A program made the translations under genes and the position numbers. This document shows, one piece after another, positions 28,513-38,658 of a DNA stretch of 64,000 nucleotides. How positions within the stretch are numbered: the first letter of the stretch is position 1; each line of letters starts with the position of its first letter. The notes beneath the pieces were generated by a model that made no database searches, was not told the DNA's origin, and worked only from the letters and a program-made list of their open reading frames with translations. Source of the DNA: Desulfovibrio sp. JC010 (GTDB lineage Bacteria; Desulfobacterota; Desulfovibrionia; Desulfovibrionales; Desulfovibrionaceae); NCBI RefSeq assembly GCF_010470675.1, contig NZ_VOIQ01000004.1, positions 1-64,000 on the forward strand. Direction: 5' to 3'.

Positions 28513-28834
28513 CTTCCACCTCAATCTGATAAGCTTCAGTACGGCGCAGGGTCACGCAGTACCCCGCCACCCGCAGCTCAAGAGGGCAGCCCAGTGTGGC
28601 GACCCGAACCACTTCAATCTTCCTGCCGGGCACAAAACCCAGGTCGAGCAGTCTCTGCCTGACCGCCCCGCCGGAAAAATGCCTGCGAATCACAGCACTT
28701 CCGCCGACGGGAATATCAAGCAGGCTCTTTCCACGCATGGAGCAGGATTTTCCTTGCTTTCTTCCGCCAAAACCGCGCTTTCTTCTCCTTCCGGAAAATA
28801 CTTCACGATCAAAGAAATCAAATTTGTTAAACAT
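28502..28834 (-). CDS. feoA: Ferrous iron transport protein A
   Basis: A 110-residue cytoplasmic protein. An Arg/Lys-rich N-terminal tail of about 38 residues precedes the SH3-like FeoA domain (LDIPVGGSAVIRR...RLLDLGFVPGRKIEVVRVATLGCPLELRVAGYCVTLRRTEA). FeoA assists FeoB in Fe2+ uptake. The upstream 387-base gap to the diguanylate cyclase carries Fur-box-like sequences. Confidence 0.92.
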   Translation of the reverse strand: MFNKFDFFDREVFSGRRRKRGFGGRKQGKSCSMRGKSLLDIPVGGSAVIRRHFSGGAVRQRLLDLGFVPGRKIEVVRVATLGCPLELRVAGYCVTLRRTEAYQIEVEDER

Positions 28835-29092
28835 TTTAACTGCCTTTTCTAATTTACGTGATTGTGAAAATGAAATTCGAAATCAATTACTATATAGCCA
28901 ACTTTTCATTGTCAACCAGAAAAATCGCAGTTCTCGTCAGCAACAATCAAATGTTGTGGGTACTCAAGAACTGCCCAATTATTTTTTCTGATGTAATAAT
29001 TTAAATTATCCTTCTCAATCACCCCCTTAGCTTAGTTCAAAACAAAGCAAGGATAATTTTCATCCTTTTAAGGTCATCTTTTTGCTTGATAT

Positions 29093-29107
29093 TGAAATTC
29101 GTTTTCA
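29093..29107. promoter_or_regulatory. Candidate Fur box in the feoA upstream gap
   Basis: TGAAATTCGTTTTCA has perfect TGAAA/TTTCA arms. It lies between divergent feoA and the diguanylate cyclase and resembles the perfect TGAAATTCAATTTCA site at 31.67 kb. A weaker match, TGAAATTCGAAATCA, is at 28871-28885 close to feoA. Besides these, the 28835-29221 gap is AT-rich and shows no gene. Confidence 0.5.
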
Positions 29108-29221
29108 TTAAGCGAAAAAGAGCTGCAAGGGATACGGAGCACTCTACTCCTCCCCCTACATATATAAAGGCACATTTTTCAATTAAAATATTAGCAATCA
29201 ATTCATACCGGGGAGGTAAAA

Positions 29222-30211
29222 TTGATTCACCTTTTCACAACAAAACTCAATAAAATGATCGAACCCGTCAAAAAGAGATTTACCCGCAACAGACTAAAAA
29301 CACGTGCGGTATTCGCAATTGTTATGCTGGTCGTTTTTCCCGCAGGGGGAATGCTGGCTGCCGCGGAATTCACTGATCAATCCGCTCTGGCCATGTTACT
29401 CTGCCTTCATTTCAGCCTGTGCATTGCCATGTGCATGCCTCTGGCCGGATGGCTGGAAGAAATCATGGCCAACCGCGAGTTACGCAGGATGAACAGCTTT
29501 TGCGTCAAGCTCAAACAAGGCAAGCTGGACCAGCGATTGGAGCTTTATCCCCATAAGATCGGTACCGTGACCGATGAAATCATCCGCCTGCAACACAACC
29601 TGAACTGGCTGGCCCACTCCGTTGCCAAGCGGGAACATAAGTTGACCCAGTCTCTGGTCAAAACCCGCCGGGACAAGGAAAGGCTCAACCTGCTTTCCTA
29701 CACCGACCATCTTACCGGATTATTCAACAAGCGCTTTTTTGAGCTTAAGCTTGTGGAAGCCTGCTCCCGTTGCATTTCCTGCAAGACTCCGCTGCACCTG
29801 ATGCTCATCGACTGCGACCACTTCAAGGAAGTGAACGACCAGTTCGGACATCAGGAAGGTGACCGTTTACTGGCAAACCTCGGCCAGATTATTGATTCTT
29901 CCGTACGCAACGGCACTGACTTTCCTTTCCGTTTCGGGGGCGATGAATTCGGTGCAATCCTTGTCGGCGTGGACTCAACCCGCTGCGAGCAGATTGCAGA
30001 GCGAATCCGGACCCGGTTCTCGGACATGAAAGTAGGCAGGGCCAGCCTGAGTATCGGAATTTCCAAGCTCTGCCGCCATGCCGATGATCCTGAGACTGAA
30101 GCAGATTCACTCATCGCCACTGCGGACAAAGCTTTGTATTTTGCAAAAAATACCGGGAGGGACAAGGTGATCAGCCCCGCCCGGTTCAGAGAAATTTCCC
30201 AGCAGAACTGA
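29222..30211 (+). CDS. Diguanylate cyclase (GGDEF) with membrane anchor
   Basis: A 329-residue protein with two N-terminal membrane segments (about 28-48 and 55-80), a HAMP-like/coiled-coil linker, and a GGDEF domain from about 160 to 320 with the intact signature FRFGGDEFGA. It should make cyclic di-GMP. The usual inhibitory RxxD site before GGDEF reads RNGTD, so the arginine is shifted and product inhibition may be altered. The start is TTG: GGGGAGG lies five bases before it, much better than any site before the ATG at codon 12. Confidence 0.9.
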   Translation: MIHLFTTKLNKMIEPVKKRFTRNRLKTRAVFAIVMLVVFPAGGMLAAAEFTDQSALAMLLCLHFSLCIAMCMPLAGWLEEIMANRELRRMNSFCVKLKQGKLDQRLELYPHKIGTVTDEIIRLQHNLNWLAHSVAKREHKLTQSLVKTRRDKERLNLLSYTDHLTGLFNKRFFELKLVEACSRCISCKTPLHLMLIDCDHFKEVNDQFGHQEGDRLLANLGQIIDSSVRNGTDFPFRFGGDEFGAILVGVDSTRCEQIAERIRTRFSDMKVGRASLSIGISKLCRHADDPETEADSLIATADKALYFAKNTGRDKVISPARFREISQQN

Positions 30212-30215
30212 TTTG

Positions 30216-30437
30216 TTAACCGGCCATATCCGACTTGGCTTCATCAACAAGACGGCCCACTTCGTCCTTTGCCGAAGTGTACTGTTTTGTTGCCCAATTT
30301 CCGGCCTTTACCCCGCCTTTGACCGCTTTGGTCACTGCGGGCTTAACTCCGCCCGCTTTGTAGACAGCGTACACTGCTGCGCCGGCTACTGTTGCGGCAG
30401 CAGAAACCAGCAGCAATCTTCCAAGATTAAAACTCAT
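30216..30437 (-). CDS. Small single-helix membrane protein
   Basis: A 73-residue protein with one glycine/alanine-rich membrane helix (LLLVSAAATVAGAAVYAVYKAG) followed by an amphipathic, Lys/Glu-rich helix (KPAVTKAVKGGVKAG, then SAKDEVGRLVDEAKSD). The layout resembles YtxH/DUF5132-like proteins and matches the C-terminal half of the 105-residue protein at 35.0 kb (P-x-V-x-KAV pattern). AAGGAG and GAGGAT precede the ATG. It lies beside the Fur gene on the same strand, so it is a probable member of the iron module. Confidence 0.75.
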   Translation of the reverse strand: MSFNLGRLLLVSAAATVAGAAVYAVYKAGGVKPAVTKAVKGGVKAGNWATKQYTSAKDEVGRLVDEAKSDMAG

Positions 30438-30551
30438 ATCCTCATTCTCCTTACTGCCCAAACGGCCAGTCTGTTTAGAAGCGAAAAATACACGTTCTCC
30501 AATTCAACACCAAACTCTGATATTGAGAACGACTTGCTAATTCAATCAGCT

Positions 30552-30983
30552 TTACTGTTTACGGCAATCCGGGCAGATACCGTAAAGCACCATTTTATGC
30601 CTGTTGACTGTAAATCCGTGCTTGCGGGCCAGTTTTTCCTGCAGGTCTTCAATACGATCCTCCATAACCTCAATCCTGCGGTTGCAGCGGATGCAGACAA
30701 GATGGTCATGGTGATGCCTGTTGTGACGGCACTCAAAGCGGGTCACGCCATCGCCGAAATCAAGGGCTTCAGCAATACCGCTTTCAGCAAGAAGCTTTAT
30801 GGTCCGGTAGACCGTGGCCGGGCTGATGGAAGGATCACGTTTGCTGACATGAGCGTAAAGCTCTTCGCATGAATGGTGTCCCTCAGTACCGAGGAAAACT
30901 TCAAGAACAACACGGCGTTGTTCTGTGGCAGCCATGTTGTTCTTATTCAAATACTCCAGAAATGTGGTTTGTGGACTTGACAT
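30552..30983 (-). CDS. Fur-family metal-dependent regulator
   Basis: A 143-residue regulator. The winged helix holds QRRVVLEVFLGTEGHHSCEELYAHV and SPATVYRTIKLLAESG. The sensor half has the His-rich HNRHHHDHLVC metal site and two Cys-x2-Cys pairs (CIRC and CPDC) for structural zinc. GGAGG before the ATG selects this start over a 40-residue longer frame. A Fur-box-like palindrome (31007-31021) lies just upstream, suggesting autoregulation. Position between feoAB and the P-type ATPase cluster points to Fe2+ as its cofactor. A second family member at 53.4 kb fits PerR better. Confidence 0.88.
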   Translation of the reverse strand: MSSPQTTFLEYLNKNNMAATEQRRVVLEVFLGTEGHHSCEELYAHVSKRDPSISPATVYRTIKLLAESGIAEALDFGDGVTRFECRHNRHHHDHLVCIRCNRRIEVMEDRIEDLQEKLARKHGFTVNRHKMVLYGICPDCRKQ

Positions 30984-31006
30984 CCTTTCCTCCGTTGTGG
31001 ATTTTG

Positions 31007-31021
31007 TGAAAATGATTTTGA
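31007..31021. promoter_or_regulatory. Fur box and promoter of the Fur-family gene
   Basis: TGAAAATGATTTTGA has seven-base arms with one mismatch to perfect symmetry. On the minus strand it lies 23 bases before the start codon and just downstream of a promoter-like TTGACA with an AT-rich -10 region 17 bases on. Binding here would shut off the gene's own transcription. Confidence 0.55.
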
Positions 31022-31087
31022 CGACTATTCTCAAGTGATAACGTTTGTCAAGGCATGAGTACTTACTTTTGCAGGGAAAAGTCTGCA

Positions 31088-31129
31088 ATTGAGACTCAAT
31101 CATCCTGCTTTCTAAAAATACAAAGCAGG
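31088..31129 (+). promoter_or_regulatory. Palindrome plus hairpin before the MamC-like gene
   Basis: ATTGAGACTCAAT (31088-31100) is a perfect palindrome about its central A. It is followed by CCTGCTTT (31104-31111) pairing with AAAGCAGG (31122-31129). TTGAGA half-sites also occur at 30522 and, reversed, at 31028, flanking the Fur gene. The sites may belong to a local regulator. Role inferred from symmetry and place only. Confidence 0.35.
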
Positions 31130-31191
31130 GTAATTATCAGCTAGGCACAAAAACCAATGACGGACCTGCCGTCTAAATTCAGGAGGATCAT

Positions 31192-31539
31192 ATGACCACA
31201 ACAACTACAGCCCGCATTCTCCCGGTAGTAACCGCTTCCGCAGCAGCCACCGGAGCTCTGGTGGGCGGAACCGTTGCAGCTGTCCGCTCTACTATCGCCG
31301 TTAACGAAGGGCGTATCAGCAGCACCGAAGCTGTAAAAACAGTTGCCAAGGAATCAGCAGGTACAGGACTGGCCACTGCCGCAGGAGTGACAGCCACCGC
31401 GGTACTGGGACTGGGCGGACTGACTGGACTGCTCGGCTTTACCGTGGTCGCTACCGGAGCAAAAATGCTCTGGGACAAAGCGGTACCCACTCCCCTTGAT
31501 GAGACCAAAAACAAAAAACTCACAGAAGTGGCCTCTTAA
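31192..31539 (+). CDS. MamC (Mms13)-like membrane protein
   Basis: A 115-residue protein with two Gly/Ala-rich membrane helices (about 12-33 and 58-86) and a short charged loop between. It matches the magnetosome protein MamC along its length as I recall that family: GALVGG in helix 1, the loop R-I-S-S-T-E-A, then AKESAGTGLATA at the start of helix 2, and AKMLWDKAV after it (MamC: AK-x-WDRGV). In magnetotactic bacteria MamC sits in the magnetosome membrane and its loop touches the magnetite crystal. Here no other magnetosome gene is present; the neighbours are Fur and P-type ATPases. AGGAGG precedes the ATG. A role at an iron-storing membrane is inferred. Confidence 0.75.
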   Translation: MTTTTTARILPVVTASAAATGALVGGTVAAVRSTIAVNEGRISSTEAVKTVAKESAGTGLATAAGVTATAVLGLGGLTGLLGFTVVATGAKMLWDKAVPTPLDETKNKKLTEVAS

Positions 31540-31623
31540 ACCAAACGGAAAATTCAGCCCTGCATCTTAATGTGATGCAGGGCCGCAAAGCCCGTAACAA
31601 CGGCTGATAAATGCCAACTTTTC

Positions 31624-31683
31624 GTTGACAAACAGATTGCACATTTGTATTCCCCTCTTCTGTGGCGTTGAAATTCAATTTCA
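31624..31683 (+). promoter_or_regulatory. Promoter with perfect Fur box before the first P-type ATPase
   Basis: A -35 box TTGACA (31624-31629) is followed about 16 bases on by a TGTATT-like -10. Just downstream lies TGAAATTCAATTTCA (31669-31683), a perfect seven-one-seven palindrome. The site lies between promoter and start codon, a classical place for Fur repression, so the operon should be switched on when iron is short or Fur is inactive. Confidence 0.65.
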
Positions 31684-31733
31684 ATTTCACCGGATGTCCA
31701 CTTGATAATCCAGTAACCAGACAGGACTTTCAC

Positions 31734-33941
31734 GTGAAAAAAGAAAAAACATATGCAAGCATCAAGCACTCCATACCGGGCAGAATCCGGTTCAACGTGC
31801 CTGACCTGAGAAAAAATAAAATTCTTTGCAGCACTGTTGAGCGGAACCTGCAGAAAATCTCCGGGATAACCAGAACCCGGTCCAACAACAAGTGTGCGAC
31901 GCTGGTTATTCGCTATAACCAGAAATATATAACTCCTGAGCGGGTATTTGAATCACTCAGGGAGATCGTCGCGGTGCATACCACTGATATCTGCCCTATC
32001 AAAGACACAAACGAGTGCGGCTGTCCGCAGGTAAAAACAGCACTGGGCTATTTTTCCTTTGTTTCTGCAGTGGGCGGGGCTGTGCTGGTCAGTGAATCCC
32101 TGCTGGGAATCACCGTGGCCCAGACCATGTTCAGCCCCTTGGGTTTTCTCACTGTGCTGGCGGCTGTTCCGCTGGTCAAGGAAGCTGTCAGCAAGCTGCG
32201 CGAAAAAAAATTCGGCCTTGAAGGAATTCTGGCCGGAGGCATTGTGGCCGCGGTAATTGCGGGGGAAGCCATGACCGCCTTTGAAATCCTGTGGATCAAC
32301 GCGGGCGCGGAGCTGCTCACTGCATGGATCACCGAGCGTTCCCGCAGGGCCATCTCCGGCATTCTGGACAACACCACCCACCACACCTTCGTGCTTAAGG
32401 ACGGAGTTGAAGTTGAGATGGAAATCAACGACCTGCAAAAGGGTGACGTTGTTGTCCTGCATACCGGAGAAAAAATCTGCGTTGACGGCACCATTGTGGA
32501 CGGTCAGGGACTGATCAACGAAGCCCCCATCACCGGACGGGCCGACTTCATCCACAAGCAGCCGGAGGATCAGGTCTTTGCCGGAACATTCGTTCGCGAG
32601 GGCGTCATCTACGTCAAAGCGGAAGAAGTGGGTGATAAAACCTATCTGGCCCGCATCCTCCACAAGGTTGAAGATTCACTTGAAAACAAGACCGACATCG
32701 AGACCACTGCGGACAAGCTTTCCGTAAGGCTGGTCAAGATCGGCTTTGCCTGCACCGTGGGAACACTGGTCTTAACCCTTGACCCGTGGCGGGCATTCAC
32801 CGTGCTGCTGGTCATGGCCTGCCCCTGCGCAACCGTGCTTTCGGCCTCCACCCCCATCAGCGCGGCCATCAGCACCGCAGCCAAGAACAACATCCTCATC
32901 AAGGGCGGACGCTACCTTGAAGAAGTTGGCCGTTGCGATGTGGCCTGCTTTGACAAGACCGGAACCCTGACCGGAAGCGAACCGAGTCTCGAACATATCC
33001 ACGTCACTGAAGGCGTGACTGAGACCGAGCTGCTGACCTATGCCTTTTCCGTGGAAACCCACAACCACCACCCTCTGGCACAGGCCATCAAACATGAAGC
33101 TGAACTCAGAACTCTTGCGCCCCTGCCCCACACTGTCTGCGAATATTTCTTAGGCAAAGGTATGCGCGCCGAACTCCCTGAGAATGATAACCATTCCACC
33201 GAAATTCTGGTGGGCAACAAGAAACTCACCGAGCAGTTTGATGTGCGCATCGGCAGTGTCAGCAGGCAGGTTTCAAACCTGAAACGCAAAGGGCTGACCG
33301 TGCTTTACGTGGTCAAAGACAAAGAGCCCATCGGACTGCTGGCCTTTGCCAACACCATTCGCGAAGAGTCCGCCATAACCCTTTCTTCCCTTGAAGCAGG
33401 CGGTGTGGATCGCACCGTCCTCGTCACCGGAGATGAACCGGCAACAGCGGGCACCCTTGCCAAGACCCTGAACATCCCTGAAATCCACGCCTCGGCCATG
33501 CCTGAAGAAAAGGCCACCCTTGTGCGCAACCTGCAAAACGAAGGCGGCAAGGTCATGATGGTCGGTGACGGTATCAATGATGCCCTTGCCCTTGCGCAGG
33601 CCGATGTGGGCGTGGCCATGGGAACAGGAGGCGCGGAAGTTGCCGTTGAAGCCGCTGACATCGCGCTGGTGGACGACGATCTCAAAGGTCTCATGTACGT
33701 TCAGCAGCTCAGTCAGGATACAACCAGAATCGCCTACCAGAACTTCTGGCTGGCCACTGGATCAAATATAGCGGGAGTCATCATGGGCGCGACCGGATAT
33801 CTCTCCCCGGTAATGGCCGGATTCCTGCACATTCTGCACACCATGGGAGTAATAGCCAACTCTTCGAGATTACTCCTGCATTCCCCTGAATCAATCCAAA
33901 CAAACCAAGGCAAAATTTATGAACTTCCACAAAATAGTTGA
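31734..33941 (+). CDS. P1B-type metal-transporting ATPase, CPC type
   Basis: A 735-residue membrane pump. The N-terminus has an HMA_2-like domain with H-S-I-P-G-R-I-R (residues 12-19) in place of a Cys-x2-Cys metal site. The metal-site helix carries CPC (Cys363-Pro-Cys365), the phosphorylated residue is Asp407 in DKTGTLTG, followed by the HP motif in NHHPLA and the hinge GDGINDAL. CPC pumps usually move Cu+, Zn2+ or similar; with this N-terminus and Fur control, iron is plausible but unproven. GTG is the likely start, with AGGA seven bases before. It overlaps the next gene by 23 bases. Confidence 0.85.
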   Translation: MKKEKTYASIKHSIPGRIRFNVPDLRKNKILCSTVERNLQKISGITRTRSNNKCATLVIRYNQKYITPERVFESLREIVAVHTTDICPIKDTNECGCPQVKTALGYFSFVSAVGGAVLVSESLLGITVAQTMFSPLGFLTVLAAVPLVKEAVSKLREKKFGLEGILAGGIVAAVIAGEAMTAFEILWINAGAELLTAWITERSRRAISGILDNTTHHTFVLKDGVEVEMEINDLQKGDVVVLHTGEKICVDGTIVDGQGLINEAPITGRADFIHKQPEDQVFAGTFVREGVIYVKAEEVGDKTYLARILHKVEDSLENKTDIETTADKLSVRLVKIGFACTVGTLVLTLDPWRAFTVLLVMACPCATVLSASTPISAAISTAAKNNILIKGGRYLEEVGRCDVACFDKTGTLTGSEPSLEHIHVTEGVTETELLTYAFSVETHNHHPLAQAIKHEAELRTLAPLPHTVCEYFLGKGMRAELPENDNHSTEILVGNKKLTEQFDVRIGSVSRQVSNLKRKGLTVLYVVKDKEPIGLLAFANTIREESAITLSSLEAGGVDRTVLVTGDEPATAGTLAKTLNIPEIHASAMPEEKATLVRNLQNEGGKVMMVGDGINDALALAQADVGVAMGTGGAEVAVEAADIALVDDDLKGLMYVQQLSQDTTRIAYQNFWLATGSNIAGVIMGATGYLSPVMAGFLHILHTMGVIANSSRLLLHSPESIQTNQGKIYELPQNS

Positions 33942-34236
33942 ACTGGAAAAGTACCTTGATGTGGCCCACCACATACCGGGCCGGATCAGGGTAAAATTCA
34001 GTCCGCTCATTCTCACCCGCCCGGCTGCCCTCGCGGCCATGAAAGAGCATACGGAACTGCCTGAGGCCATAAAAGAAGCCCGGGTCAACATGTCCGCCCG
34101 CTCCGTGGTGATTGAGTACGATCCCGAAGAAATAAGTCCCGAATTGATTGAAGAACTCATTCAAGGAAAGGACAAAGAAAATAAAGCACAGATCATCAGC
34201 GACCTCTACGGAAAACTGATGAAAAACGCTTCATAA
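33919..34236 (+). CDS. Stand-alone HMA_2-like domain protein
   Basis: A 105-residue soluble protein starting in the end of the first ATPase gene. It carries H-H-I-P-G-R-I-R at residues 17-24, the same motif as the N-termini of both ATPases in the cluster, and the beta-alpha-beta pattern of heavy-metal-associated domains (ARVNMSARSVVIEYDPEEISPELIEELI). It lacks the Cys-x2-Cys pair, so it probably does not bind Cu in the usual way. It may act as a partner or soluble counterpart of the ATPase N-termini. Small HMA-type proteins are reported in ferrosome gene clusters. Confidence 0.8.
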   Translation: MNFHKIVELEKYLDVAHHIPGRIRVKFSPLILTRPAALAAMKEHTELPEAIKEARVNMSARSVVIEYDPEEISPELIEELIQGKDKENKAQIISDLYGKLMKNAS

Positions 34237-34270
34237 ACAACCCCTGAAATTAAATTCACAGGAGCCAGAT

Positions 34271-34999
34271 ATGAGCACCGAAACAAGCCAGACCGAAACT
34301 GTACAGACTGCACCGCAGCAGCCCAATACATCCCAGCCGGTAATGGGTCCGGATCAGGGACAGCCCCATTTTTCCTACACCACTCCCGGTGACCCTTATC
34401 AGGGCGCACCCGTTTCCGGGAATGTTCAGGCGACCGATATGACTGCCCAGCAGCCTATGCAGCAGGTTCCCCAACAGCCTGTATACCAGCAGCCCGTTTA
34501 TCAGCAACCTGTTCAACAGGTTCCGCAGCAGCCTGTATATGGCCAGCCCGTGTACTATGGACAGCCTGTTTACGGCCAGCCCGTCTACGGACAACAGGTT
34601 TACCAGCAGCCCATGCAGCAGCCAGTACAACAACCGCTTCAGCAACCACTGCAACAACCTGTTCAGCAGCCCGTGCAGCAGGCTCCCACCGCCGCGCCCA
34701 ACACTTCCGAAGAACAGGTCAAACAGTTTGTAGACCTCGTTAAAGACACTGCGGAAGGCAAGGCCGACCCGGCAAGTTTCTTAAGCTTTTTCAATGGAAT
34801 TGATGACGGTTTCTGGAAAGGTCTGCTTGTGGGCGCAGGTATCACATTTGCCTGCACCAGCAAGACCGTAAGGTCCATCTTCACTTCCGGCGGCAAGGAA
34901 GAAATGTCCGCCGAGGAAATAGAAAAAATGGAAGACCTCAAGGCCGAACAGGAATACATGGCCGCACAGGCTGCCAAAGAAGCAGCGGAAAAGGAGTAA
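34271..34999 (+). CDS. Gln/Pro/Tyr-repeat protein with C-terminal membrane helix
   Basis: A 242-residue protein. Residues about 60-140 are low-complexity repeats of units such as VYQQP, YGQPV, QQPVQ and QQPLQ. Then comes a folded part with a membrane-compatible helix (FWKGLLVGAGITFACTS) and an acidic, Lys/Glu-rich coiled coil at the end. The K-G-x-L-V-G-A-G helix motif is shared with the next gene's product. Such repeats often self-associate or form condensates, so this could be a scaffold or coat on a membrane compartment; this is inference. GGAG precedes the ATG. Confidence 0.75.
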   Translation: MSTETSQTETVQTAPQQPNTSQPVMGPDQGQPHFSYTTPGDPYQGAPVSGNVQATDMTAQQPMQQVPQQPVYQQPVYQQPVQQVPQQPVYGQPVYYGQPVYGQPVYGQQVYQQPMQQPVQQPLQQPLQQPVQQPVQQAPTAAPNTSEEQVKQFVDLVKDTAEGKADPASFLSFFNGIDDGFWKGLLVGAGITFACTSKTVRSIFTSGGKEEMSAEEIEKMEDLKAEQEYMAAQAAKEAAEKE

Positions 35000-35002
35000 A
35001 CA

Positions 35003-35320
35003 ATGAGTCAGGATTACAACAACGACTACGTGTATAATTATCAGGACCCCCAGCTCACCGATCAGCAGCGCGTCGATACCCTGCAGCAGGTTGAGCCCGT
35101 ACAGCAGGATACTTCCGTAAAAAGCTGGGTAAATTTCACTGATTCCCGCTACCTGAAAGGCTTCCTCGTAGGTGCGGGCGTCGCCCTTGTGGCCTCCAAC
35201 CCCAAAGTGCAGAAAGCTGTGGTTTCCGGAGTCGTGAAATCATGGTCCGCTGTTCAGGGCGGCATTGAGGAAGCAAAGGAAAAAATCCACGACATCAAAG
35301 CCGAAGCGCAGTCTGAATAG
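35003..35320 (+). CDS. Small membrane protein paralogous to the repeat protein
   Basis: A 105-residue protein beginning three bases after the preceding stop, with AAGGAG as ribosome site. The N-terminal 40 residues are Asp/Gln/Tyr-rich and disordered-looking. Then YLKGFLVGAGVALVASNPKV forms one membrane helix, followed by an amphipathic helix (QGGIEEAKEKIHDIKAEAQ). The helix matches KGLLVGAG in the preceding gene, and the tail matches the small protein at 30.2 kb. Probably a family of membrane-shaping or scaffold proteins of the same module; function unknown. Confidence 0.75.
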   Translation: MSQDYNNDYVYNYQDPQLTDQQRVDTLQQVEPVQQDTSVKSWVNFTDSRYLKGFLVGAGVALVASNPKVQKAVVSGVVKSWSAVQGGIEEAKEKIHDIKAEAQSE

Positions 35321-35325
35321 GGTTT

Positions 35326-35421
35326 GCCTCCGGCGGCTGGGGAAGGGGAACTTTTGGGAAAAGTTCCCCTTCCCCAGACCCCATCCCCTCAAAACTATTT
35401 AGTCTGCTTCGCATATAGCGC
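35326..35421 (+). repeat. Intergenic hairpin repeat, copy 4 (long stem)
   Basis: GCCTCCGGCGGC begins five bases after the stop codon. The next block is an 18-base perfect inverted repeat with a GGG loop (35338-35376), much longer than in other copies. The tail CCCCAGACCCCATCCCCTC and GCTTCGCATATAGC (35372-35421) recurs at 38.55 kb. It splits the iron cluster into two halves and could terminate or attenuate transcription. Confidence 0.85.
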
Positions 35422-35455
35422 ATTCAATTGCACTTAAGCCCAGAGGTTTCCTGCT

Positions 35456-35710
35456 ATGAACGCTTTACCTGAAATCAAAAGCAAAGAAAAAAAAACTTTT
35501 CGCCAATGCAAAGACTGTCCGCTTACGCCCAGTAAGACAAGGACAGCGGCCAAGGTGGGAATGGTTGCCACGCTTGGCGCCTCGGCGGCATCGGGTATGC
35601 TCAAGTTCAGGGCGGCCAAGCCGATCCACCTCTGGGCTTCTGTTGCTTTTGTCGGATTTACAGCTTTGCACTGGGCGGTTTCCAGAAGACCGCAGAGGAC
35701 CACCAGATGA
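35456..35710 (+). CDS. Small Cys-motif membrane protein
   Basis: An 84-residue protein with a short N-terminal Cys-x2-Cys motif (CKDCPLTP, residues 18-25) and two hydrophobic stretches (KVGMVATLGASAASGML and IHLWASVAFVGFTALHWAV). The cysteine pair could bind iron or another metal. Its stop overlaps the next start by four bases (ATGA), so it is translationally coupled with the second ATPase. AGAGG lies about ten bases before the ATG. I do not know a function; in context it may feed metal to the pump. Confidence 0.7.
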   Translation: MNALPEIKSKEKKTFRQCKDCPLTPSKTRTAAKVGMVATLGASAASGMLKFRAAKPIHLWASVAFVGFTALHWAVSRRPQRTTR

Positions 35711-37830
35711 TCGGAACTCCCAATAGAAAAAAACGTTTTGAAATAGTCCATGAACTGCCGAAAAGGATCAGGCTTAAATCGCTGATCCTGCTTGCGCCGG
35801 ATCTGGACCTCAACTATCTGCAAGCCAGTGTGGAATCCCTTCAGGGAGTCAAATCGGTACGCATCAACGGCCCGGCCTTTTCCATTGCCGTGGAATACGA
35901 CGGCAGCCGTGAAGTGCGCGCATCCATACTGGCAACACTGGACTTCATTCCCAAGGAAGCATTCCTTAAGGGAGCTGAAAGAGAACATGGCGTGGACCTG
36001 ATTGAAGTAGGCGCAAGAACTGCCGCTGCTGCGGCAACCCCGCTCCTGCCCCTGCCTGTTCAGGCCGCCACCAGCTGGATGCTGGGTATCCCCGGCATTG
36101 TGGAAGGACTTGAAACCCTGTTCACCCGCGGTGTTAAAATCGAGGTACTGGACGGTACGGTTAAGGCCCTCTCCCTGCTGCGCGGCGATTACTTCACCTC
36201 CAACTCCGTAGGTGCACTGCTCAGTCTCGGCGAATACCTTGAAGACCAGTCCGAACAGAAATCAACCGACCTGCTCAAGACCCTGCTTAAACCGCAGGTT
36301 GAAAAAATATGGATCGAAAAAGACGGCCGTGAAATCGAAATAGACTTCAATGATCTGCAAGTAGGCGACATTGTGGTTTGCGGGTCCGGGGAACTCATCC
36401 CCATTGAGGGGACGGTTGTGGAAGGCGAAGGTTCCGTGAACCAGAGCTCCATCACCGGGGAATCCGTACCCGTACATTTCCAGCCCGGAGACGCAACACT
36501 TTCCGGCGCGGTTGTGGAAGAAGGGACCCTGAAAATCAGGGCGGACAAAGTCGGCTCTGAAACAGGCATGGCCCGTATCAACCGCTATCTTGAAAGCTCC
36601 CTGCGTTCGCAGTCCAAAAACCAGATCCAGTCCGCAGAACTTGCCGACAAGCTGGTTCCCCTGACCTTTGGAGCCGGACTGGGCGTTTACGCTCTTACCG
36701 GAGACCTTGCCCGTGCGGCATCGGTTCTCACTGTGGACTACTCCTGCGCCATCAAGCTCTCCACCCCGGTTGCCACCCGTACCTCCATGTACACTGCCAG
36801 CCAGTCCGGAGTGCTGCTCAAAGGCGGACAGGCCCTCGACAACCTTGCTGCGGTGGACACCATTGTCTTTGACAAAACCGGAACCCTGACCAAAGGGGAG
36901 CTCATTGTCACCGACATTGTGCCCATGCCCCTTTATGAAGAGGAAGAACTGCTTTCCATTGCCGCCGGGGCCGAGGAACATTACGGACATCCGGTAGCCA
37001 AGGCAGTGGTCAACGAAGCCAGGAACCGCAAAATCGAACTCCCGGAAGTGAGCGGGGTCGATTTTATCGTGGCCCACGGTGTTTCTGCCTATGTTGACGG
37101 CAAACGGGTTCTGGTCGGCAGCGAACATTTTGTTGCCGAAGACGAACACGTGGACTGCTCCTACATGGAAAAGAAAGCCCGCCAGCTGCGCAACGCAGGC
37201 AAAAACCTGCTTTTCGTGGCCATGGACGGAGAACTCATCGGCGTAATCGCCATGCGCGATGAACTGCGCCCTGAAGCTTTGGAAGCCCTCGAAGCCTTTA
37301 AAGCCGCCGGGATCAAGCGCATTGAAATCCTCACCGGGGATCACCGTTCCACAGCACTGGCCCTTGCGGCCCAGCTGCCCCCGGTTGATGCAGTTCACTG
37401 GGAACTTAAGCCTGAGGATAAAGCAAACATTGTCAAGGAACTCAAGGACGGCGGGGCCAAAGTTGCTTTTGCCGGAGACGGAGTCAACGACACCCCGGCC
37501 CTTGTCTGCGCCGATGTAGGCATCTGCATGCCTTCAGGAGCGGACCTTGCCCGCGAATCAGCGCAGGTGGTCATGCTCAATGAAGATATGCTCACCCTTG
37601 TGGAAGCGCACCGCATAGCCCTGACCAACCGCGAGACCCTCAGCAACTGCCTGTGGTCCGCAGTGGTCATCAACTCCGCCACCCTGCTACTGGCCGGGAT
37701 GGGCAAAATATCCACCCTTGCCGCAGCCATGAGCCACAACCTCAGCACAGTAGGCATACTCGGCTACGCAGCCATGAAAACATCGTCCGCAGGGCAGAAA
37801 GCTTCGCAGAGCGCAAAGGAGATAAATTAA
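35707..37830 (+). CDS. P1B-type ATPase, SCA type (FezB candidate)
   Basis: A 707-residue membrane pump. The N-terminus carries H-E-L-P-K-R-I-R (residues 15-22), the cluster's HMA_2-like motif, without Cys-x2-Cys. The metal-site helix reads VDYSCAIKLSTP, with Ser346-Cys347-Ala348 in place of CPC. The phosphorylation site is Asp389 (DKTGTLTKG), the HP motif is in HYGHPVA, and the hinge is GDGVNDTPAL. Non-CPC pumps of this kind fit the P1B-6 subgroup, which includes FezB of ferrosomes; the subgroup call is from memory and not tested. It is joined to the Cys-motif protein upstream and the FeoA-like gene downstream by overlaps. Confidence 0.85.
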   Translation: MIGTPNRKKRFEIVHELPKRIRLKSLILLAPDLDLNYLQASVESLQGVKSVRINGPAFSIAVEYDGSREVRASILATLDFIPKEAFLKGAEREHGVDLIEVGARTAAAAATPLLPLPVQAATSWMLGIPGIVEGLETLFTRGVKIEVLDGTVKALSLLRGDYFTSNSVGALLSLGEYLEDQSEQKSTDLLKTLLKPQVEKIWIEKDGREIEIDFNDLQVGDIVVCGSGELIPIEGTVVEGEGSVNQSSITGESVPVHFQPGDATLSGAVVEEGTLKIRADKVGSETGMARINRYLESSLRSQSKNQIQSAELADKLVPLTFGAGLGVYALTGDLARAASVLTVDYSCAIKLSTPVATRTSMYTASQSGVLLKGGQALDNLAAVDTIVFDKTGTLTKGELIVTDIVPMPLYEEEELLSIAAGAEEHYGHPVAKAVVNEARNRKIELPEVSGVDFIVAHGVSAYVDGKRVLVGSEHFVAEDEHVDCSYMEKKARQLRNAGKNLLFVAMDGELIGVIAMRDELRPEALEALEAFKAAGIKRIEILTGDHRSTALALAAQLPPVDAVHWELKPEDKANIVKELKDGGAKVAFAGDGVNDTPALVCADVGICMPSGADLARESAQVVMLNEDMLTLVEAHRIALTNRETLSNCLWSAVVINSATLLLAGMGKISTLAAAMSHNLSTVGILGYAAMKTSSAGQKASQSAKEIN

Positions 37831-38543
37831 TGTCCCTGACACTGGATAAAGCACCTGTTGAAAAAAACCTTATGCTCAAAGCAATAGGCAGTGATTCGCT
37901 CAAGGCCAGATTTGAACGCATGGGACTCCATATAGGTTCAGAACTTGAAATCATGTCCGAGGATTCGGTCCAGCACCCGGTGCGCGTCAAAGGACCGCAG
38001 GGCGAGGTTCTGCTGGCCGCCGGAATGGCCTCCAAAATCATCGTCCACCATGATGACGGTCACAAGACCCCGGTCTTTGAAATGAATCCCGGCGAAAAAG
38101 GCCACATCGAAGGACTCACCGCCGGATCGCATCTGGAAAAGAGCCTCAAGATTCTCGGCATCTCCGAGGGAGACAACATTGAGCTGATCCGCTGCCTGCC
38201 GCCCATGTCCTACAAGACAGTTGTTGACGGCAAACAGACCAGCCTCACCGAAGGCATGGCCGCCAAAATATGGGGAGAGTGCGATAATGTCCCCTGCCAG
38301 CTGGCCACCTGCGGCAGGGGTCGTCCCTTTGAAGTGAAAAATATCCTTGGCGGTCCAAGAGCTGCCAAGTCCATTTCGTCCATCGGCATCAAGCCCGGTG
38401 CCACAGTGGTTCTTGAAACCGTAGAACCAGCACGGGCTGTGGGCATGACCCCGGCTGCGCGCATAATCATCATGACCAAAGAAGGCTTGCGGTTGCACCT
38501 GCGGCCTGATCAAGCCGAGACTATGCTGGTTAGCGAGATATAA
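37830..38543 (+). CDS. Protein with three tandem FeoA-like domains
   Basis: A 237-residue cytoplasmic protein. Three SH3-like FeoA units are visible: residues about 5-75 (LKARFERMGLHIGSELEIM), 85-155 (LEKSLKILGISEGDNIELI, then LTEGMAAKIWGE) and 165-235 (AKSISSIGIKPGATVVLETV). Two cysteines are in CDNVPCQLATCGRG. Normal FeoA has one unit of about 75 residues. Its ATG overlaps the ATPase stop (TAATG) with AAAGGAG upstream, so it is made together with the pump. By analogy with FeoA-FeoB it may regulate or assist the ATPase. Confidence 0.85.
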   Translation: MSLTLDKAPVEKNLMLKAIGSDSLKARFERMGLHIGSELEIMSEDSVQHPVRVKGPQGEVLLAAGMASKIIVHHDDGHKTPVFEMNPGEKGHIEGLTAGSHLEKSLKILGISEGDNIELIRCLPPMSYKTVVDGKQTSLTEGMAAKIWGECDNVPCQLATCGRGRPFEVKNILGGPRAAKSISSIGIKPGATVVLETVEPARAVGMTPAARIIIMTKEGLRLHLRPDQAETMLVSEI

Positions 38544-38606: not shown

Positions 38607-38658
38607 CCAAAAACAAAGACCGTAATATCTTACAGGATATTACGGTCTTTGTTTTTGG
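38607..38658. terminator. 23-base-pair bidirectional terminator
   Basis: Positions 38607-38629 pair perfectly with 38636-38658 around a six-base loop. The core GACCGTAATATC recalls the terminator at 2.6 kb. A-rich and T-rich ends allow action in both directions, between the convergent iron operon and the rlmN operon. Confidence 0.9.

Follow-up and report, generated by a model that had tools for sequence, protein, structure and literature searches.

Positions 30,216 to 38,543 of a 64,000-nucleotide stretch of Desulfovibrio sp. JC010, probably a sulfate reducer (contig NZ_VOIQ01000004.1; this whole stretch is hereafter called the window) raise the question of whether their genes, for a Fur-family regulator, small membrane proteins, two P1B ATPases and a FeoA-domain protein, form a variant of the ferrosome (fez) operon. 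Ferrosomes, iron stores enclosed by a membrane, are a recent discovery, and for most of their small proteins no function is, to our knowledge, assigned. Shewanella putrefaciens has a six-gene fez operon, and a ferrosome of Desulfovibrio magneticus with FezA, FezB and FezC was reportedly described by Grant et al. in 2022. Rhodopseudomonas palustris builds ferrosomes from six fez genes (PMC12016538, in excerpt), and FezB and FezC are presented in excerpts of PMC11334425 as a putative ferrous iron transporter and as a heme-b cytochrome related to DUF4405, respectively. We found that the gene cluster is real and is a fez-type (ferrosome) set with all parts present. The inference of a variant fez system, made in the initial annotation, gains support at the level of sequence from the conserved gene set, the FezB-type ATPase, its FezC-like partner and Fur boxes.

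Seven families, all on the forward strand in the window, form the core of the cluster. A MamC-like two-helix membrane protein (31192..31539) precedes ATPase 1 (31734..33941), a P1B ATPase with an HMA_2 domain, a Cys-rich linker, a MACPCAT motif and an HxxxH motif in its sixth transmembrane segment (TM6); from homologue lengths its probable start is the GTG at 31734, and the listed start sits by a Fur box. These are followed by a stand-alone HMA_2 domain protein (33919..34236), a Pro/Gln-rich membrane protein termed PQTM (34271..34999), a single-transmembrane protein of a YtxH/DUF5132-like family termed TM105 (35003..35320), a FezC-like (DUF4405-like) two-histidine membrane protein (35456..35710) and ATPase 2 (35707..37830), a P1B ATPase with a DYSCA motif and an HMA_2-like N-terminus, which the tree and the motif table identify as FezB-type. 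The triple FeoA-domain protein (37830..38543, forward strand) comes last, and its start was set at 37830 (the listed open reading frame begins at 37653), several homologues being of 237 amino acids. All parts of the gene list given in the initial annotation were found, namely the Fur regulator (Pfam FUR 120 bits), the membrane proteins, the two P1B ATPases (TIGR01525 475 and 462 bits), the stand-alone domain and the FeoA protein (Pfam FeoA in three stretches, 80 bits). The shared H-x-x-P-x-R-I-R domain that it had pointed out is HMA_2, with 50.1 bits in ATPase 1 and 38.9 bits in the stand-alone protein, while the corresponding region of ATPase 2 scores 24.9 bits, under the Pfam cut-off of 30; its "Cys-motif membrane protein" is present and is now identified as the FezC/DUF4405-like cytochrome candidate. 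The TM105 family is matched by YtxH in four and by DUF5132 in five of ten members, and the window copy matches neither.

Profiles made from the window and from a paralogous cluster of the same genome were widened and run on loci of relatives. Among 36 Desulfovibrionaceae loci, which are the fetched host-family loci with ATPase 1, 34 contain all seven core families, with PQTM and TM105 present in each of these complete clusters, and the two incomplete loci (L131 and L145) end at contig borders. This co-occurrence is far beyond chance, and the small membrane proteins stand in an operon that is conserved together with the FezB-type ATPase. The FeoA protein is found in 33 of the 34 complete loci, L119 being without it. 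The usual order is ATPase 1, HMA_2 protein, PQTM, MamC-like protein, TM105, FezC-like protein, ATPase 2 and FeoA; the MamC-like gene stands at the front beside the Fur gene in ten clusters of compact type from the window's genus, the window included, and the FezC-like gene stands at the front in L008 and L107 as exceptions. In L142 the gene caller merged the FezC-like frame, leaving its place unreadable, and L121, which entered through a weak FezC match and is without ATPase 1, was left out of the count.

ATPase 1 (E up to 1e-120) was detected in 41 of 199 sampled genomes of the host family, spread over 14 of 44 genera; 14 of these 41 genomes were covered already, and 20 of the other 27 were fetched. 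The two-pump form is common enough to be put to test, as its ATPase 1 turned up in 41 of the 199 sampled genomes and 34 of the 36 fetched loci hold the full set. A search of the phylum gave 18 genomes positive for ATPase 1, 13 of them outside the host family, and the full set was present in three of these 13 (L197, L198 and L202); a fourth, L201, has the set without only the FezB-type ATPase and FeoA, within the fetched stretch. ATPase 1 and the triple FeoA protein together with a full cluster were found only in the host family and these three other genomes of the phylum. The idea that ATPase 1 is confined to fez clusters was rejected, because it occurs without the cluster in genomes of the phylum.

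Outside the phylum, we compared six fez-type operons, from Hahella (L010), Rhodomicrobium (L011), Vibrio (L123), Arcobacter (L124), Azospirillum (L125) and Cereibacter (L122). The FezB-type ATPase and TM105 are present in all six, the HMA_2 protein in five, the MamC-like protein in four, and PQTM and the FezC-like protein in three each. The view in the initial annotation that a MamC-like member lies outside the described fez sets is not supported, as this protein is recognised in the operons of Hahella, Rhodomicrobium, Vibrio and Arcobacter (it was not recognised in those of Cereibacter and Azospirillum). Its suggestion that the second ATPase and the triple FeoA protein are additions agrees with the loci seen, since neither is present in any of the six operons within the stretches examined; a single-domain FeoA gene lies close to the operon of Cereibacter. 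The operon on an Azospirillum plasmid consists of six genes, encoding an HMA2-FezC fusion, an HMA_2 protein, two small proteins, a YtxH-like protein and the FezB-type ATPase. The two small genes occupy the places of PQTM and the MamC-like gene, where our profiles matched neither and NCBIfam did not match the second. In gene number and kind, judged via this Azospirillum operon only, the cluster resembles the six-gene fez operon of R. palustris (RPA2333-2338) and S. putrefaciens, and it differs by adding the MACPCAT ATPase, the triple FeoA protein, the Fur gene and one more small membrane protein. With the D. magneticus ferrosome it shares the combination of a FezB-type ATPase and a DUF4405-like FezC (PMC11334425, in excerpt).

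In both Azospirillum and Hahella an HMA_2 domain is joined to the FezC-like part in one protein. The two histidines of the FezC-like family are invariant in 15 of 15 aligned proteins, and their H-x13-H spacing is kept in 40 of 40. The window protein combines the DUF4405-like membrane character with the paired histidines expected of FezC, and it is predicted to bind heme. All nine HMA_2 matches of the genome sit in its two clusters or in an orphan ATPase.

For classification of the pumps, 126 of 171 gathered P1B ATPases were selected and the Cu-type rows cut from 39 to 8, giving a tree of 95 sequences that was made by a quick method without bootstrap. ATPase 2 falls inside a DYSCA clade of 37 rows with support 95 (starred), or of 39 rows with support 99 (starred) when two cyanobacterial sequences are included, and this clade also contains the ATPases of the fez-type operons of other phyla, as well as ATPases of Firmicutes and methanogens. 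ATPase 1 forms a separate clade, with support 100 (starred), that lies apart from the Cu and Zn rows, and its nearest row is a mycobacterial CPC ATPase (L021), with the weak support of 87. The initial annotation had regarded a position of both pumps in Cu or Zn clades as an argument against a fez system; the tree does not refute such a system, ATPase 2 being placed as FezB-type and ATPase 1 in neither group. The fifth transmembrane segment (TM5) and TM6 of both ATPases, in residues that we take to be those binding metal, are unlike those of the Cu rows (N/Y, MxxSS) and of the Zn rows (K, D). From tree and motif, ATPase 2 is a FezB-type ATPase outside the Cu and Zn clades, the type named P1B-6. 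A linker with at least three Cys after the HMA_2 domain is found in 34 of 49 ATPase 1 proteins and in none of the 24 FezB-type ATPases placeable by motif search. In the window the Cys-rich stretch lies at about 31990-32025, between the HMA_2 domain and the first membrane helix, and it is a possible metal or redox site.

Regulation by iron was approached with the delta-proteobacterial Fur consensus WTGAAAATNATTTTCAW, taken from excerpts of PMC545781. The presence of Fur boxes, stated in the initial annotation, is borne out as sequence by sites at 29092, 31006 and 31668. The two best sites in the 64 kb are those at 29092 and 31668 (14/16 each), and the latter, at 31668..31684, precedes the main operon; the site in the divergent promoter (31006..31022) scores 13/16 and overlaps an operator-like block at about 31018-31051, which is conserved in ten loci of the genus. 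Sites of at least 13/16 number eight in the window, the other five lying at different places, and ten shuffles gave a mean of 1.6. Of the ten compact loci, nine have a best site of 13 or 14/16 before ATPase 1 and one has a best site of 12; in eight of the ten the box stands 94-101 bases ahead of the HMA_2 motif. The E. coli-type Fur consensus was tried and rejected, since it gives no 19-mer of at least 13 in the divergent promoter of the window and the delta consensus fits better; an E. coli-type 7-1-7 repeat reaches 11/14 at 31036 and is equalled in 11 of 500 shuffles. The genes feoAB and a GGDEF gene diverge from the region with the 29092 box, one of the two best in the window.

The MamC-like protein was recognised by the NCBIfam MamC model (NF038051), which gives 44.9 bits (E 1e-11) for the window copy, the curated cut-off of 100 not being reached, and matches 14 of 17 cluster MamC-like proteins at E up to 0.1. 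In the host's class this model matches 50 of 348 genomes, with scores of 20-62 bits and none at the cut-off, and it matches none of 14 control genomes. These 50 include every one of the 41 genomes that carry ATPase 1, and of the nine others, three are weak matches in long open frames. In Rhodomicrobium's class, only one of 385 genomes matches, which is Rhodomicrobium itself, the carrier of a fez-type operon. In Hahella's class, four of 369 genomes match profile A4, Hahella via its fez-type operon; the other three (G1140, G1288 and G1336) are gammaproteobacteria without a match to any cluster family within 1.5 kb of the MamC-like gene. Four proteins of these three were scanned, one scoring above the MamC cut-off (132 bits) and the others 52, 68 and 75 bits. 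The gammaproteobacterial MamC or MamC-like genes lie at L215:1480-1842, L218:1525-1902 and L217:1486-1785 (G1140 and G1336; also G1288), and no magnetosome or fez gene was recognised in lists of open reading frames over 10-15 kb around them, inspected by eye only. We rejected the MamC-like protein as a marker of fez alone, because three gammaproteobacteria carry the gene without nearby cluster families, and the family alone therefore signals neither a magnetosome nor a ferrosome.

The gammaproteobacterial MamC above the cut-off finds 45 of 45 cluster MamC-like proteins (E up to 6e-5) and, with E up to 1 allowed, none of the 170 other small proteins of the clusters; it matches the window copy by BLASTP at 1e-8 and profile A4 by hhalign with 98.6% (E 8.8e-16). 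As judged by these comparisons, the cluster protein is a true homologue of MamC (Mms13), over 65-94 residues that include the loop between the two helices, and it differs in that the host-class proteins stay at 20-62 bits against the cut-off of 100. Searches of PDB with the window protein and with profile A4 did not retrieve MamC. Only the MamC-like protein at L008:15448-15780, from the second cluster of the genome, retrieved it, the sole PDB match of this protein up to E 10 being the MamC-loop fusion 6eqz with a weak E of 0.38. Since the PDB match is limited to this second copy and is weak, the homology claim is based on NCBIfam and the MamC above the cut-off.

In MamC, a loop of 21 residues between two helices contacts magnetite, the main ion site of the loop peptide is Asp14 to Thr19, and the contact pair is 66/70 (PMC6206293 and PMC6584501, in excerpt). 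This pair is given as Asp66/Glu70 in excerpts of PMC6206293 and as Glu66/Asp70 in those of PMC6584501, which equates Asp14 with Asp70. The loop of L008:15448-15780 shares 10 of 21 residues, including Glu10, Asp14, Gly16, Lys17, Glu18 and Gly21, and the likeness to the magnetite-interacting helix appears fullest in this second-cluster protein. The window loop has Glu10, Glu18 and Gly21, with Thr and Ala in place of Asp14 and Gly16, so that the contact Asp is lost. Over 45 proteins, Glu10 and Asp14, at the two magnetite-contact positions of the peptide, are kept in 29 and 18, Gly16 in 4, Glu18 in 41 and Gly21 in 27; these counts indicate that the loop has retained its frame, with the exact contact residues preserved only partly. 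No report of a MamC relative in a fez operon was found in the ferrosome, fez and MamC literature, of which excerpts were covered that did not include Grant et al. 2022 and Pi et al. 2023.

We consider it very probable that the cluster is the host family's form of the ferrosome operon, which would be regulated by iron and most likely makes an iron-storing membrane compartment. Fur would repress the cluster at plentiful iron, and scarcity would lead to its expression. The FezB-type ATPase would then pump Fe(II) into a compartment derived from the inner membrane. Electrons passed by the FezC-like cytochrome would serve to oxidise iron for storage or to reduce it for release. Shaping or scaffolding of the compartment may fall to the small membrane proteins (Pro/Gln-rich, YtxH-like and MamC-like), and the MamC-like loop may face the lumen and touch the iron mineral or limit its growth. 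ATPase 1 and the triple FeoA protein, as a regional addition, would probably act as a second step for cations or iron and as a protein for docking or control.

Several observations weigh against this reading. The DUF4405 matches are weak, with 12 of 15 FezC-like proteins at E up to 0.1 and a best of 0.0006, and the window protein (E 0.007) scores 17.2 bits where the cut-off is 26.7. Verified Fez sequences (of D. magneticus, R. palustris, S. putrefaciens and C. difficile) are not included in the ATPase tree, and neither the 80 loci of one genome scan nor the 30 plasmid records listed contained a verified FezB. ATPase 1 has few partners or none in nine of the 13 genomes outside the family, several of these stretches being short; the partners are FezC-like and FeoA proteins in L199, HMA_2 and FeoA in L203, and HMA_2 or small matches in L204 and L207. 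Only 21 of 49 regions upstream of ATPase 1 reach 13/16 for the Fur consensus, and the score of the compact loci is reached by 0 to 27 of 200 shuffles, with 10-27 for several of them.

Two other explanations have to be considered. The genes may form a metal-efflux platform without an organelle, in which small Gln-rich membrane proteins cluster P1B ATPases in a PacL-like manner for export of excess Fe, Zn or Mn. The mycobacterial CPC neighbour of ATPase 1 is in its favor, and so are the small Pro/Gln-rich membrane proteins adjoining the ATPases, a likeness to the mycobacterial PacL/CtpC platforms, where PacL1 with a membrane helix and Gln/Ala repeats acts with CtpC (PMC9374683, in excerpt). However, no PacL-type family is among the Pfam matches of the window cluster, the delta-Fur boxes and the feoAB neighbours point to iron and to expression at scarcity, not excess, and the core set corresponds to that of fez-type operons that have a FezC-like protein. 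We know of no FezB- or FezC-like partner in PacL/CtpC platforms, and we regard the efflux platform as unlikely. The cluster may instead belong to a magnetosome system, in which the MamC-like protein, together with its partners, makes magnetite-like crystals, as the homology to MamC and the loop resembling the magnetite-interacting one would suggest. This is highly improbable, as the curated MamC cut-off is reached nowhere in the class, the gammaproteobacterial genes occur apart from the cluster families, and, among the matches shown for proteins of the cluster, MamC is the only family named for magnetosomes, the genome not having been searched for other mam genes.

The same genome carries a second, longer paralogous cluster (G000:C19, L008:4772-16398), with three ATPases and two MamC-like proteins. 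It has three stand-alone HMA_2-type proteins by our profiles, two of them also by Pfam, and adjoins a topoisomerase and an ArdC-like gene. Genes for metal uptake, ZnuA-like and ABC-3, lie directly beside it (L008:16670-18474), and two further feoB genes are on the same contig (L210:2351-4879 and L211:480-2669). A relative (G007:C16, L107) carries the long cluster with DNA 87-93% identical over about 17 kb, and its 51-kb contig also holds VirB4-, VirB6-, VirB8-, VirB9- and VirB11-type transfer genes; because the long cluster and the VirB-type genes are on one contig, ferrosome-like clusters may move by conjugation. The orphan HMA_2 P1B ATPase (L009:2536-4653, on G000:C10) has an unusual DYVCS motif and groups in the tree with the third ATPase of the long clusters.

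On the reverse strand, a small glycine-rich single-transmembrane protein (smTM, 30216..30461) gave no match in the Pfam scan and has a homologue at the same place in the ten compact-type clusters, the window included; next to it is the Fur gene (30552..30983, reverse strand), whose start was set at 30983 (the listed open reading frame reaches 31103), several homologues having 143 amino acids. A terminator-like stem of 20 pairs (38609..38656, forward strand) was found 3' of the operon by a pattern scan that detected 21 sites against 15.0 in shuffles. Just upstream of the cluster are feoB, feoA and the GGDEF gene (28834-30211). No RNA families or tRNAs were found in the window, and a phage link was set aside, the single phage-family match having an E of 0.016.

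What appears to be new here is a two-ATPase, triple-FeoA variant of a ferrosome-type operon, and the link to MamC is of most interest. Since the loop of MamC contacts magnetite, a homologue in the cluster gives a small ferrosome-cluster protein a concrete and testable role, and its occurrence in fez-type operons links two classes of bacterial iron organelle. Tentatively, we suggest that ferrosomes and magnetosomes may share a mineral-facing protein: the MamC-like protein would be a regular member of proteobacterial-type ferrosome operons, its lumenal loop nucleating or capping the iron mineral in the way MamC acts on magnetite, and the magnetosome protein may have been drawn from, or given to, a commoner iron-storage organelle. 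As part of the same proposal, the organelle of the host family would have two pumps, FezB-type and MACPCAT, and FeoA-based control, and may have spread partly on conjugative elements.

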